64,000 nucleotides of DNA from Atopococcus tabaci (lineage in GTDB: Bacteria; Bacillota; Bacilli; Lactobacillales; Carnobacteriaceae_A): the NCBI GenBank assembly GCA_030535975.1, contig JAUNQW010000005.1, positions 1-64,000 on the forward strand. The letters are read 5' to 3'. A model generated the notes under the pieces. The model had not been told where the DNA came from, made no database searches, and saw nothing but the letters and a program-made list of their open reading frames with translations. The translations under genes were made by a program, and so were the position numbers. This document shows, piece by piece, positions 17,224 through 22,367 of the stretch; position 1 is the first letter of the stretch; every line of letters starts with the position of its first letter.

Positions 17224-17712
17224 TTATGAGTTGAGAATCCGTGGAGGTAAAATAGAACGTAAAATTTGACTCAATGGAAGTGCGATTACAGCTCCCACTA
17301 AGGTTTGAATTAAATCACCAGGGATAGCTGCTAAAGCTACCGGAAGTCCGTACATAAACCAAGAAGCTAGAAAATAGCCCAGGACCATAATAACGGAAGC
17401 AAAGATTAAGCCTGTTATTCTCCCCCAAATGGGTTGATTTGAGAATTTACCAGCCATCCAGCCTTGAGCACCGTGAATAATGAAAGAAAAAAGAGTCCAC
17501 TGAAAATAACCTGAGATGACATCTATGAGACCTCCGCTGAGAGCACCTACAAAGAAACCTCCAGCCGGACCAAATAAAAGCGCAGATGTAAAAATACCGG
17601 CATCAATTAAAGATACAAAGCCGTTGCTTCCAGGTATAGGTATAATGACCCACATGGAAATAGCAAGAGTTAAAGCTGTCATCATCGCATAAGTTACATA
17701 TTTTTTTGTCAT
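17224..17712 (-). CDS. ECF transporter S-component, probably for vitamin B6 (PdxU2-like)
   Basis: This 162-residue integral membrane protein has about five to six hydrophobic segments and the Gly-rich loops typical of ECF S-components (SLIDAGIFTSALLFGPAGGFFVG, about 34-56). S-components bind a vitamin and use a shared EcfAAT module for energy. The substrate is inferred from context: it follows the pyridoxal kinase gene by 21 nt, and the operon is divergent from a PdxR-type regulator. This is the known arrangement of PdxU/PdxU2 genes in Firmicutes. The EcfAAT genes are not in this window. Confidence 0.75.
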   Translation of the reverse strand: MTKKYVTYAMMTALTLAISMWVIIPIPGSNGFVSLIDAGIFTSALLFGPAGGFFVGALSGGLIDVISGYFQWTLFSFIIHGAQGWMAGKFSNQPIWGRITGLIFASVIMVLGYFLASWFMYGLPVALAAIPGDLIQTLVGAVIALPLSQILRSILPPRILNS

Positions 17713-17733: not shown

Positions 17734-18600
17734 TTAATTTTGTAAATCTCTCATGTGTAAAGCCAGGTCTAACAGTATGGGTTCAAAGTAAATACCATCC
17801 TGGACAGATCGTTCTAAAGCGACAGTATCTGCTAAGCATTTCTCAAGCATCTTTCCGGATTCAATAAGACTGTCCTTTAATGACAGCCCATTTTCATGGT
17901 AAGCAATCAGCAGACTCATAGCGATATCTCCTGTCCCAAAGAAAGGGGAGTGATATTTTCTGTGCATAATCGTCTGACAGTCTCCATCTTTTTGATAGAA
18001 GAAAAAACCTATTTGGTCCGGACCAAATTTTTCTGTATTCTCAATGCCGGACAGCACCACATTCTCTGCTCCCTGGTCGATTAGCAGCTGGGCCAGTTCA
18101 ACAAGTTGATCCTCATTCATGGACTCAGAGAATTCATAGCCTGTCATGAGACAAGCTTCTGTTACATTGGGCATAATTAAGTAAGTGTTCTGACAGAGTT
18201 TACTTATTTCTTGAGGAATTCCTTCATTAAAACCAGGGTAAAGCCGGCCGTGGTCCCCCATGATAGGGTCTACATACAGACGCCGCATGTCGCCTTGTGA
18301 GTGGTTATCGAGATAATATTTATGAAATTCATGAATCTGGTGAACGTCTGCAAAATAGCCCGTTGTGTAAATATCAAAGGTCAACTGCTTCCGCGCCCAA
18401 TGATCCAGCATATCTTCATAACCTTGCTCCATAGAGTAACGGACGACATTACCTCCATCATAATCTGCATTTTTAGATAAGATTAAAGTAGGGAGGATGG
18501 ATACTTCAAAAAGTGCAGCAGACAGTATAGGAAAACTTATATTACCAGCGACTTTTCCAGCTCCTGGTATATCATTGATGATTAATATGTTCTTAGGCAT
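17734..18600 (-). CDS. pdxK: Pyridoxal/pyridoxine kinase (PfkB family)
   Basis: This 288-residue ribokinase-fold kinase phosphorylates pyridoxal, pyridoxine or pyridoxamine with ATP in B6 salvage. The N-terminus is LIINDIPGAGKVAG. The middle has VDPIMGDHGRLY (about 108-119) and MPNVTEACLMTG (about 143-154). The C-terminal anion-hole motif is GTGDIA (about 222-227), with Asp as catalytic base. The AAAGGAG RBS is well placed. It is the first gene of a two-gene minus-strand operon whose promoter region contains the TGGTATC inverted repeat. Phosphomethylpyrimidine kinase is a related alternative, but neighbours favour B6. Confidence 0.82.
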   Translation of the reverse strand: MPKNILIINDIPGAGKVAGNISFPILSAALFEVSILPTLILSKNADYDGGNVVRYSMEQGYEDMLDHWARKQLTFDIYTTGYFADVHQIHEFHKYYLDNHSQGDMRRLYVDPIMGDHGRLYPGFNEGIPQEISKLCQNTYLIMPNVTEACLMTGYEFSESMNEDQLVELAQLLIDQGAENVVLSGIENTEKFGPDQIGFFFYQKDGDCQTIMHRKYHSPFFGTGDIAMSLLIAYHENGLSLKDSLIESGKMLEKCLADTVALERSVQDGIYFEPILLDLALHMRDLQN

Positions 18601-18628: not shown

Positions 18629-18655
18629 TGGTATCTTAAGTTAAATCTGATACCA
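18629..18655. promoter_or_regulatory. Inverted repeat in the pdx divergent region, likely PdxR operator
   Basis: TGGTATC (18629-18635) and GATACCA (18649-18655) are perfect arms separated by 13 bp. A related GGTACC occurs nearby (18686-18691). The site lies in the 107-bp region between the pdxK start and the regulator gene, so a dimer of the regulator could bind here to control both. Confidence 0.5.
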
Positions 18656-18707
18656 TAGAAAGCGTCAGATTAAAAGTTTTTAGCGGTACCAGATGAAGGG
18701 TGAACCC

Positions 18708-20111
18708 ATGCTGCTCAATATTAATCATCAAAGTAAAAAGCCTTTATATATTCAAATTTATGAAAAAATCAAGGATAAAATTAACCAGTCTGAATTATTG
18801 CAAGGTCAAAAGTTGCCGAGTAAACGCCAGCTGGCTGCAAATAATGGAATTTCACAAAACACGGTGATAAAAGCTTATGATCAGCTGTTAGTTGAGGGGT
18901 ATATTCGTTCGGAAGAACGTCGCGGCTATTTTGTAGAAGATATTGACTTTTTACAAATGCCGCTTCAAAGTACAAAGTTTTGTGAGGATTTTGCTTTGGA
19001 AAAAAAGAAAACTGAACATTTTCTTGTAGACCTGACCCGATCCAATCCAGATCCAAGTCTCTTTCCTGTTTCTGTATTTTCTAAAATATATACCAATTTA
19101 TTAAATAGCCAGGATGAAAGTTTGCTGCGAGCGAGCAGTGGGCAAGGCTTATTTGAACTGCGCCATTCAATAGCTGCGTATTTAAGTCAGTCTCGAGGTG
19201 TTCCTTGTCAAACAGACCAGTTAGTTTTAGCTCCCAACTCTCAATTATTATTAGAGATTCTTTTCAATCTTTACCCGGAAATTCAAAAAATTGGGATGGA
19301 AGACCCGGGCTACCCAGGCTACCAGTCCCTCTTTAAAGTACGTAAAATAGAAGAAAAAGCGATTCCCTTAGACGAAGAAGGGCTTGTTATTGATCAATTA
19401 TACCAGTCGGGGGCGGACACGGTCTTTGTGACCCCTAATCATCAGTTTCCCACAGGTTCTATTATGCCTTTAGAAAGACGCCAGCAATTACTTATGTGGG
19501 CTCAAGAAAAACCCAGCCGGATTATTATTGAAGATGATTATGATGGTGAATTTAAGTATTCAGGAATTCCAGTGCCCCCTTTAATCCAATTAGACCATCA
19601 TCAACAAGTGGTTTATTTAGGAAGTTTTACTCGAGTTTTATCTCCAGGTATCCGCTTGTCTTATCTGGTATTACCTGAGAAAATGATAAAGAGATTTAAT
19701 GATTCTTATACTCATCTTTCTTCTTCTCTCAGCTCTTTTACTCAGCATGCTGTTCATGAGTTCATCAAAGCGGGACATTTTACGAGCCATTTAAATCGGT
19801 CGCGGCGTTTGTATAAAAAGAAAAGAGACCTTTTGATTCAAAGTATTCAAGCGATTGATTCCGAAGCTCTTTTTTATGGAGAAGAGGCAGGCCTCAGCCT
19901 TTTGGTTAAGCCCGGCCATTGTTTTAATGGACCGAAATTAAAAGAAGTATGCCTAAGGGAAGGCATTCGCTTGAATTTATTATCTGATTACAAGAATCAG
20001 CCTTCTGAGCAGGATGAAAAAATTATTTTTCTGAGTTTTTCATCTATTCCTTTGGAAAAAATAGACCATTTGATTAAACAAATCTATCACTTGATAAAAA
20101 ATCACTCTTAA
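18708..20111 (+). CDS. pdxR: MocR-family (PdxR-like) transcriptional regulator
   Basis: This 467-residue protein fuses an N-terminal GntR-type winged helix (about residues 11-75, with LPSKRQLAANNGISQNTVIKAY) to an aminotransferase class I fold (about 105-465). PdxR proteins bind pyridoxal phosphate and regulate B6 genes. The PLP pocket elements IIEDDYDGEF and PNHQFPTG are present. However, the segment that normally carries the Schiff-base lysine reads GSFTRVLSPG, with Arg309 in the lysine position. The start at 18708 is preferred over 18693 because AAGGGTG lies just upstream of it. It is divergent from the pdxK operon, and ung follows 33 nt later. How Arg affects PLP sensing is unknown. Confidence 0.85.
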   Translation: MLLNINHQSKKPLYIQIYEKIKDKINQSELLQGQKLPSKRQLAANNGISQNTVIKAYDQLLVEGYIRSEERRGYFVEDIDFLQMPLQSTKFCEDFALEKKKTEHFLVDLTRSNPDPSLFPVSVFSKIYTNLLNSQDESLLRASSGQGLFELRHSIAAYLSQSRGVPCQTDQLVLAPNSQLLLEILFNLYPEIQKIGMEDPGYPGYQSLFKVRKIEEKAIPLDEEGLVIDQLYQSGADTVFVTPNHQFPTGSIMPLERRQQLLMWAQEKPSRIIIEDDYDGEFKYSGIPVPPLIQLDHHQQVVYLGSFTRVLSPGIRLSYLVLPEKMIKRFNDSYTHLSSSLSSFTQHAVHEFIKAGHFTSHLNRSRRLYKKKRDLLIQSIQAIDSEALFYGEEAGLSLLVKPGHCFNGPKLKEVCLREGIRLNLLSDYKNQPSEQDEKIIFLSFSSIPLEKIDHLIKQIYHLIKNHS

Positions 20112-20144
20112 AATAATAGAGAAGAAAAGAGGAGAATGATCGAA

Positions 20145-20828
20145 ATGATACCTGTAGAAAACGATTGGCGGCCCATCTTGCAAGAAGTGATGACGAGTAA
20201 TTCCTATCAAGAATTAAGAGAATTCTTGAAGCTGGAATATCAGAAGTATCAAGTTTTTCCTGATATGCATGAGATATGGACAGCCTTTCAGTGGACATCA
20301 TTTTCGGATACGAAGGTAGTCATCTTAGGACAAGATCCTTATCATGGTCTGGATCAAGCCCATGGCTTAAGCTTTTCCGTTCAACCCGGTGTCAAGGTGC
20401 CTCCGTCATTAAAAAATATTTATAAAGAATTAGAAGATGATCTCGGTTACTCACCGGTTACTCATGGTTATTTGAAAAAATGGGCAGATCAAGGAGTCCT
20501 TCTTCTCAATACTGTTTTAACGGTTCGAGCAGGGCAGGCCCACTCACATAAGAATAAAGGGTGGGAAAAATTGACAGATCACGTCATTCAATCCTTAAAT
20601 CAAAAAGAAAAACCGATTGTTTTTATTCTATGGGGTAATGCTTCCATTCAAAAAAGAGAGTTAATTGATGAAAGCAAACACATCGTTTTAACTTCTTCTC
20701 ATCCCAGTCCTTTCTCTGCTCGAATTAGTTTTTTTGGATCAAAGCCTTTTTCGAGAACAAATGAAGTATTAAAAGAAAGCGGACAAGATGAAATTGACTG
20801 GCAGTTACCTAAAGAAGTACAAGAGTAA
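20145..20828 (+). CDS. ung: Uracil-DNA glycosylase, family 1
   Basis: This 227-residue enzyme excises uracil from DNA to start base-excision repair. The catalytic water-activating motif GQDPYH is at 62-67 (Asp64). LLLNTVLTV follows near 125, and the DNA-intercalating HPSPFSA loop near 185-191. ATG at 20136 lies 1 nt after the GAGGAG, so the ATG at 20145 is the likely start and fits the family N-terminus NDWRPIL. It sits 33 nt after pdxR on the same strand without an evident terminator. Confidence 0.95.
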
Positions 20829-20840
20829 AGGGAGTATGAG

Positions 20841-22367
20841 ATGAAAATAGCCATTGTAGGGGCGGGTGTTGCCGGCTCAAGTGTTTTAAGGACTTTGATT
20901 GAAGAAAGTCCGGAAACTATGATCGACAGGATAGATGTCTTTGACTATCGGAAGGAAACCAGTCGGGGTCTGCCCTATCAAGAAGATGACCCCACTCTCC
21001 TTCTGAATATTTCACCTGATCGCATCAGTGTTTATTCAGATAAGAGCAAAGATTTTGTTGACTGGCTGAAAGATAAGAATTTAGAAGATGCAAGGCAGGA
21101 AGGTATGGTTCAGCGCCGCCATTACGGCAGATATCTCCATGAGCGATTCGAATCTTACTTTAATCACGTAAAGGTACACTTCCAGCAGAGTAAAGTAATT
21201 GATATGCTTATTTTTAATGATAAAGAGGAGCCTGCCTATCAAGATTCAGACTCAGAAAAATTCTATCGCTTGAAGTTGGAAGACGAAAGTTGGACGACTT
21301 TCTACGATGCAGTCTTCTTTACCATCGGTCACCCGCCTTATGCTGATTACTACACCTTAGCTGAGCATCCCAGCTTTATACGTCATCCTTATCCTTTATC
21401 TAAAAAACTAGGAGACATAAAAAATGATCAAAAATTGGGGGTCGTCGGAAGTGGAGCCAGCAGTTTTGATATCCTGCGCTATTTCAAGCGGCATTTTGAT
21501 GTTGACTATGCGCTTCCGCTTTATATTCCAACCACACCTTTTACGCCCACTCACATCGAAGTGGACGAAGAGCCGAAGAGATCTTGTATTAATGATGAAT
21601 GGATAGAAGAAAATCGGCACCCAGAAACCGGTCGAATCCTTCTGGCTGATATTTGGGAACAGGTGAAGTATGACTTAACAGAATATGGAGTGGACTGGTC
21701 ATCTGTGCTTGCTCAATTCTCCACAGGAGATTTGAGCGAGAGTATAAGACAATATTACAACCGGCCCAGAGGTCTGGGTGTTATTCAAGAATACCTTTCA
21801 TCTCTCAGCCAGCATTTAGCAGATTTATATAATGCTTTATCTATGAAGGATCGACAAGATTATGACACGTTTTACCGGCCGCAGGTAGAGCATTTTAGAC
21901 ATAGTATTCCCCATGAAACAATGGGCAGGGTCATTGACTCGCTGAAGAAAGATGAACTGCGGATCGTCCCGGGTCTGAGTGATATTCAGTGGGATGAAAC
22001 AAATCAAGTATTTGATATCTATATAGATGGTCGCTATCATGAGTCTTGTGATATTTTGGTTAATGGAACTGGTTTTGAATTCCGTCTAAAACAAGCAGGT
22101 GAATTTAATCTTTTGATACATAATTTGTACCAAAAAGGATATATTATACCTGCTGATAACGAAAGTCGGCAGGGAGTTGCCGTGACCTGGCCAGAATGTC
22201 AGTTGATTAACCGCAAGTTTGGCCAGCTTGATCATGTCTATCTAATGGGGCTTTTTATCCACCTCACTCAATATGGAAATAATAATGCCCGGCTCAATAT
22301 GGAACAAGGTCGTCGGTCTGCTAAACACTTAATCGACCGATATCAAACACATTACTCCGTTCATTAA
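20841..22367 (+). CDS. FAD/NAD(P)-binding protein (NAD_binding_9/HI0933-like)
   Basis: This 508-residue protein has two dinucleotide-binding signatures: AIVGAGVAGSS at residues 3-13, and LGVVGSGASSFD near 200. The segment SRGLPYQEDDPTLLLNISPDR near 36-56 is typical of the FAD-NAD(P)-binding family PF13454. It is cytosolic, with no transmembrane segment. The substrate is unknown; relatives hydroxylate or reduce varied small molecules. It starts 12 nt after ung with AAGGGAG as RBS, so it is probably cotranscribed, though the link with repair is not obvious. Confidence 0.75.
   Translation: MKIAIVGAGVAGSSVLRTLIEESPETMIDRIDVFDYRKETSRGLPYQEDDPTLLLNISPDRISVYSDKSKDFVDWLKDKNLEDARQEGMVQRRHYGRYLHERFESYFNHVKVHFQQSKVIDMLIFNDKEEPAYQDSDSEKFYRLKLEDESWTTFYDAVFFTIGHPPYADYYTLAEHPSFIRHPYPLSKKLGDIKNDQKLGVVGSGASSFDILRYFKRHFDVDYALPLYIPTTPFTPTHIEVDEEPKRSCINDEWIEENRHPETGRILLADIWEQVKYDLTEYGVDWSSVLAQFSTGDLSESIRQYYNRPRGLGVIQEYLSSLSQHLADLYNALSMKDRQDYDTFYRPQVEHFRHSIPHETMGRVIDSLKKDELRIVPGLSDIQWDETNQVFDIYIDGRYHESCDILVNGTGFEFRLKQAGEFNLLIHNLYQKGYIIPADNESRQGVAVTWPECQLINRKFGQLDHVYLMGLFIHLTQYGNNNARLNMEQGRRSAKHLIDRYQTHYSVH

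Follow-up and report, generated by a model that had tools for sequence, protein, structure and literature searches.

Published accounts describe MocR regulators as PLP-dependent by way of a lysine aldimine. This lysine, Lys312 of GabR, is reported to be conserved in every MocR cluster (PMC6677901) and fully conserved in 278 EnuR proteins (PMC8739950). A laboratory mutant of the Ruegeria pomeroyi protein, EnuR Lys302His, was still dimeric in gel filtration. It was PLP-free and acted as a constitutive repressor (PMC8739950), so loss of the lysine can end sensing. GabR of B. subtilis forms an external aldimine with GABA and activates GABA genes; its PLP contacts are listed in the same source (PMC6917764).

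Two PdxR systems are closest to the locus described here. According to PMC11619246, PdxR of B. clausii controls the synthesis genes pdxST, and in S. pyogenes PdxR increases the activity of the pdxKU promoter in the absence of B6 and decreases that of its own promoter. The transcript levels in S. pyogenes did not fall with B6, unlike the reporter (PMC11619246). The main text of that S. pyogenes paper does not mention lysine, arginine or Schiff. Among the matches listed from the open-access literature, no natural Lys-less PdxR was described in titles or opening abstract text.

We analyzed a 64 kb stretch of DNA (the window) that holds a PdxR-type regulator gene with arginine in place of the Schiff-base lysine. 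The features of the locus are as follows.

17224 to 17712, minus strand: S component of an ECF transporter, located downstream of the kinase-like gene (PF07155, 123.8 bits); pdxU-like by position and family only.
17734 to 18600, minus strand: divergent pdxK-like pyridoxamine-kinase-like gene (PF08543 above cut-off; PRK07105 201.3 bits, below the cut-off of 231).
18647 to 18668, no strand assigned: putative operator boxes 1 and 2, mutually inverted, CTGATACCAT-AGAA-AGCGTCAG.
18685 to 18692, no strand assigned: putative operator box 3, GGTACCAG, ending 24 nt past the end of box 2.
18708 to 20111, plus strand: Arg-type PdxR/MocR regulator; 467 aa when read from the likelier ATG.
18744 to 18935, plus strand: GntR-type winged helix-turn-helix (PF00392), residues 18-81 of the 472-aa frame.
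19110 to 19898, plus strand: aminotransferase-like sensor domain, Pfam-matched part (PF00155), residues 140-402 of the 472-aa frame.
19632 to 19634, plus strand: CGA codon, Arg at the place of the Schiff-base Lys, by alignment to Lys312 of GabR and Lys309 of B. clausii PdxR.

An in-frame ATG at 18693 extends the reading frame upstream (18693-20111, plus strand, 472 aa). The ATG at 18708 is the likelier start, because Met6 is nearly invariant within the clade of Arg-type relatives described below. The winged helix-turn-helix and the aminotransferase class I/II domain both matched above their Pfam cut-offs. Pfam and a fold match thus place an N-terminal wHTH before a C-terminal fold-type I aminotransferase-like domain, as in MocR/GabR proteins. 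The NCBIfam PdxR equivalog NF052282 gave 474.6 bits against a curated cut-off of 320 and was the top of 50 families. The AlphaFold2 model of the regulator has a mean pLDDT of 92.5, with block 311-320 at 90. Superposition of its sensor domain gave Z 46.6 and 1.7 A across 362 residues for PdxR 7pq9, and Z 47.0 and 1.8 A across 359 residues for apo GabR 8vxk. The regulator is the sole full-length match of its kind in its own genome, a draft (57 contigs, 1.33 Mb) with 85% completeness; two further matches there were partial and weak. By architecture, family score, gene context and predicted operator, the regulator is a PdxR-type MocR protein, and by alignment it is a variant without the internal-aldimine lysine of the MocR/GabR subfamily.

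A first-pass annotation, made from the letters of the window, had read the segment GSFTRVLSPG with Arg in place of the PLP-binding lysine and had proposed alignment with solved PdxR and GabR structures as a check. In that alignment the Arg of the segment falls on Lys309 of 7pq9 and Lys312 of GabR (4n0b), and the CGA codon lies inside the 19620-19650 interval given for the substitution. The residue is Arg314 when counted from the first ATG; the number used in the annotation, Arg309, is valid when counted from the second start at 18708. The annotation had also called the DDYD residues and the HTH intact. Both are intact by Pfam and alignment (the former as EDDYD), and so is the phosphate-binding Arg.

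Compared with B. clausii PdxR (PDB 7pq9, 7zla, 7zn5, 7zpa and 7zth), the window protein has the same domain order, a similar fold and similar non-Lys pocket residues, and both have B6 genes as divergent neighbours. However, the B. clausii protein has Lys309 for the internal aldimine where the window protein has Arg, and it controls synthesis genes whereas the window locus carries salvage genes. GabR shares the fold and the PLP contacts Tyr205, Phe250, Asp279, Tyr281 and Arg319; Lys312, the GABA aldimine and the GABA target genes set it apart. EnuR Lys302His is also a MocR protein without the lysine, but it was made in the laboratory, whereas the state seen here is natural and clade-wide.

Arg was found in 12/12 members of a clade that spans two families, with proteins 41-53% identical to that of the window. 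All four CGN codons (CGA, CGT, CGC and CGG) are used for it. A quick tree was built, with the residue column omitted, from the 135 proteins that remained when 168 rows, two reference proteins among them, had been thinned at 80% identity; in it the clade retained 11 Arg rows and had an SH-aLRT of 100. Arg in all members of a well supported clade, in four codons, argues against an error, and across these 12 sequences Arg is a fixed trait of the clade. Outside the clade, Arg occurs in only 2 of 154 distinct proteins (156 minus the two Lys reference proteins), L071 from Granulicella and L189, each alone on the tree. We used this figure in place of 0/104 among Lys-type rows, a circular count whose rows had been picked for having Lys.

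Within its own family, matches at 1e-40 were found in 2 of 27 genomes, the window's own and G018. The order gave matches in 42 of 395 genomes, and 30 places were taken as loci. The closest 12 of these 30 (the window, L004 and L085-L094) all have Arg, and the remaining 18 have Lys, Ser or Gln. The best 29 class-wide loci outside the order, L288 among them, all have Lys. In one genus (g13), a Lys-type PdxR lies by pdxS in G106, a Gln type by pdxS in G086, and G112 has an Arg type; these species form a natural comparison set for the three types.

The residues around the missing lysine are conserved in the clade. In GabR numbering, Tyr281, Asp282, Ser309, Ser/Thr311, Arg312 and Arg319 are present in 12/12. 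Asp279 is present in 11 (Asn in L004), Tyr205 in 11 (Phe in one) and Phe250 in 10 (Tyr in two). The phosphate loop is changed: Gly-Ala-Gly at GabR 178-180 became Gly/Ala, then Pro (11/12), then Ser/Asn. The retained PLP contacts are suggestive of PLP binding by the window protein.

The G018 protein (L004/L113), the closest relative of the window protein at 53% identity, also has Arg. It has Asn for the ring-nitrogen Asp, box 1 is the sole operator box in its upstream region, and its surroundings hold none of the B6 genes searched for. This regulator is possibly losing or changing its role. A 33% identical FAD-NAD(P)-binding protein gene follows it directly (L113 2967-4466); the similar gene of the window (20841-22367) is separated from the regulator by a uracil-DNA glycosylase gene (20136-20828).

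Upstream regions of eight relatives (L114, L115 and L118-L123) share the pattern CTGRTACYAT-4-AGTRYCA and, after it, a GTACCAG whose end lies 24 nt past box 2 (23 in L123). L118 departs from the first part at two bases and the window at one. The eight sites were picked by eye, with L114 nearly a copy of L115. From these eight, with the window left out, a matrix was made that ranked 18647 top of the 64 kb on both strands, with a score of 18.8 against 14.5 for the next place. L113 and L116 hold parts of the site only, and L117 holds none. The window and eight relatives thus carry three predicted boxes, one inverted to the other two. One inverted and two direct boxes are the commonest arrangement reported for MocR regulators (PMC5320631). 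The first-pass annotation had named TGGTATC as the operator. This motif is present at 18629, but what the relatives conserve is the three-box site at 18647-18692, within which only the inverted copy of the motif occurs (18649).

Among the matches listed, the full pattern occurs once per genome, at the regulator promoter, in 7 of 10 clade genomes. With a pattern written to admit the window's own site and up to 2 mismatches, the window's genome gave 6 places compared with 5 for the reversed control, and 18647 was the sole mismatch-free site. A wider regulon was considered and rejected: a similar pattern had 161 listed places across 11 clade genomes, with individual sites given for all but G018, and the control had 187. 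Since these counts are at control level, we claim no further targets.

The annotation's divergent B6 genes are borne out by the kinase-like gene and the ECF S component beside the regulator, with the kinase staying below the PRK07105 cut-off; salvage and transport genes of this sort are expected neighbours of a PdxR gene. Genes like pdxK or pdxU adjoin 9 of 12 clade regulators, where the window's pdxU match is its own sequence used as query; for the other 3, no B6 gene of those searched for lay within reach. Apart from itself, the window's S component matched only L118 among 20 contexts, and weakly (E 0.001). It has a strong match to a riboflavin-type ECF S family and no close similarity to the PdxU-like proteins found in other clade members, so its substrate is uncertain. 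One protein query found no PLP synthase gene pdxS in the 85% complete genome, in a search that ran without a positive control. From this the organism probably salvages B6, and B6 auxotrophy is only likely.

Loss of the lysine extends beyond the Arg clade. Of 217 loci, four had no MocR ORF (L186, L002, L003 and L084); L186 was later read as Ser and stands outside the 166 distinct proteins. Among these 166, 64 have no Schiff-base Lys, a proportion that is not a population estimate, as the window protein and one family model served as seeds for the sample and only part of the matches were taken as loci. The residues are Lys 102, Gln 23, Arg 14, Thr 14, Pro 5, Met 3, Ser 3, Asn 1 and Ala 1. Eight switches between Lys and non-Lys are required on the tree, and well supported branches force at least 7 of them. 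These counts rule out the Arg protein as a unique oddity. Judged by this tree and the gene neighbourhoods, Lys loss is recurrent among B6-linked MocR proteins.

Neighbours were sought up to 3 kb away, as far as the locus extended; flanks were about 1.5 kb for most loci and as long as 4 kb for named records. Because flanks are unequal, adjacency counts are lower bounds. Among B6-linked regulators in the set, 28 of 46 have no Lys, and 19 of these lie beyond the Arg clade, figures that are descriptive only given relatedness and seeded sampling. The Gln type of family f5 has pdxS beside 9 of 10, the Ser type beside 2 of 3 and the Asn type (Peptostreptococcus, L028) in its single case. The streptococcal type has pdxK plus pdxU beside 5 of 23. 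Other Gln rows have B6 neighbours in 2/13 and the two lone Arg rows in 0/2. Lys-type rows of the order have pdxS in 14 of 37 and pdxU in four, which may be generic ECF S components; Lys-type rows of named genomes have none (0/65).

The f5 Gln-type regulators (L104, L105, L107-L112, L154 and L158) have Asn for Asp279 and Arg for Ser311 in 10/10. As nine of them lie beside pdxS, the ring-nitrogen Asp is lost even in regulators adjoining PLP synthesis genes. Another Gln-type clade (L015, L017, L019, L023, L025, L031, L034, L038, L041, L044 and L045), from Brevibacillus, Paenibacillus, Chengkuizengella and a Bacillus, has Cys, Gly or Ser for the phosphate-binding Arg. None of the sought B6 genes lies beside any of these 11 loci.

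The streptococcal type comes from genus f4/g12, where 24 of 26 genomes searched gave matches. Its tmRNA tags in the five genomes tested (e.g. AKNNTSYALAA) are what we take to be Streptococcus tags. The short matches of this genus (L163-L184, L186 and L187) are 418-445 aa long and score 203-235 bits, below the PdxR cut-off. All 24 are without Lys: 23 have Thr, Pro, Met or Ala, and L186 has Ser. They carry a Lys four residues upstream, at GabR position 308, in 23/23 aligned and in L186. Three longer matches above the cut-off, L153 among them, have Lys. In genome G146, pdxS has a Lys type beside it and pdxKU a Met type.

The PdxR-pdxKU locus of S. pyogenes and S. mutans resembles the window in having a MocR gene with divergent pdxK and pdxU. 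The pdxKU-linked MocR proteins of the streptococcal type are 5/5 Lys-less (Met 3, Thr 2); they are from f4/g12 genomes. Unlike the window protein, this type is shorter, falls in another clade and below the PdxR cut-off, and has the Lys at 308. No such three-box site was seen in the five upstream regions of this type that were compared.

We hold with moderate confidence that the Arg-type PdxR controls B6 salvage, binds the three-box operator and holds a B6 vitamer non-covalently. Confidence is only moderate because EnuR Lys302His shows that a Lys-less MocR can be simply blind. The regulator would bind the three boxes between its own gene and the divergent kinase/ECF genes. The same layout of pdxKU in S. 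pyogenes suggests the same regulatory logic here. The regulator would then most likely switch the kinase/ECF genes on when B6 is scarce and damp its own promoter, and by this analogy we infer an activator role. Retention of the ring and phosphate contacts in a pocket that lacks the amine points to a vitamer held there without a covalent bond. PLP or PMP may sit there without an internal aldimine, its ring stacked by Tyr207 and Tyr283, with Asp281 at the ring nitrogen. Ser311, Thr313 and Arg321 would form the phosphate cup, and Arg314 would touch the cofactor non-covalently. The ligand, its binding mode and the role of Arg314 are what we infer from these residues. Between the two readings raised in the first-pass annotation, we favour a non-covalent B6 vitamer (PLP, perhaps PMP) over another ligand or state. 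Counting against this explanation are the altered phosphate loop, the three of 12 members without B6 genes, the changes in L004 and the kinase below its cut-off. The weak sole relative match of the S component and the S. pyogenes transcripts that did not fall with B6 also count against it.

Some of these points would suit a pocket taken over by a non-B6 ligand, for example another phosphorylated metabolite, with the regulator serving B6 salvage or a neighbouring function. The clade's phosphate loop, where 11/12 have Pro at GabR 179, and further positions are changed, and three of 12 regulators lie away from the sought B6 genes. However, nine of 12 adjoin such genes, and the pyridine-ring and phosphate residues are retained almost without exception, which would be odd for a ligand that is not pyridoxal-like; we regard a takeover as unlikely. 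That sensing was lost altogether, leaving an apo, constitutive activator or repressor whose aminotransferase domain serves for dimerisation only, is rather improbable. It has a precedent in the dimeric but constitutively repressing EnuR mutant (PMC8739950), and Asp279 is also gone in L004. Yet five pocket positions (GabR Tyr281, Asp282, Ser309, Arg312 and Arg319) are invariant in all 12 members at only 41-53% identity, which points to a working pocket.

Covalent binding of PLP through a different lysine of the window protein is very improbable. Relocation is conceivable in the streptococcal type with its Lys at 308, but at this position 11 members of the Arg clade have Gly and one has Ser. With 12 pocket positions tested, no substitute Lys shared by at least 6 of 12 members was found 3 columns or fewer away from any of them, so the other conserved lysine that the first-pass annotation had named as contrary evidence did not appear near the pocket. 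The clade conserves lysines at 27, 40 and 44 in the HTH and at 131, 288, 375 and 377, where Lys288 stands in place of an Arg common in Lys-type rows. A sequencing error or decaying pseudogene is hardly credible. The genome is an incomplete draft; nevertheless the frames are intact, Arg recurs in 12 of 12 sequences with four codons, and a change from a Lys codon to CGN takes two steps.

With non-covalent holding of a B6 vitamer as the preferred reading, the lineage that shares the Arg probably senses the vitamin by a way other than Lys. Such sensing could read PMP, PNP or the total phosphorylated B6 pool rather than just PLP. Of the lineages without Lys in our sample, the Arg clade is the most uniform. 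We put forward tentatively the wider possibility that the Schiff-base Lys is dispensable for B6 sensing and that several Firmicutes lineages independently went from covalent, aldimine sensing to non-covalent sensing. If B6-linked members do repeatedly lack Lys, the aldimine would not be the essence of B6 sensing, and a PdxR annotation would be no proof of covalent PLP binding. The streptococcal PdxR studied for virulence and biofilm may then itself be of the Lys-less kind.
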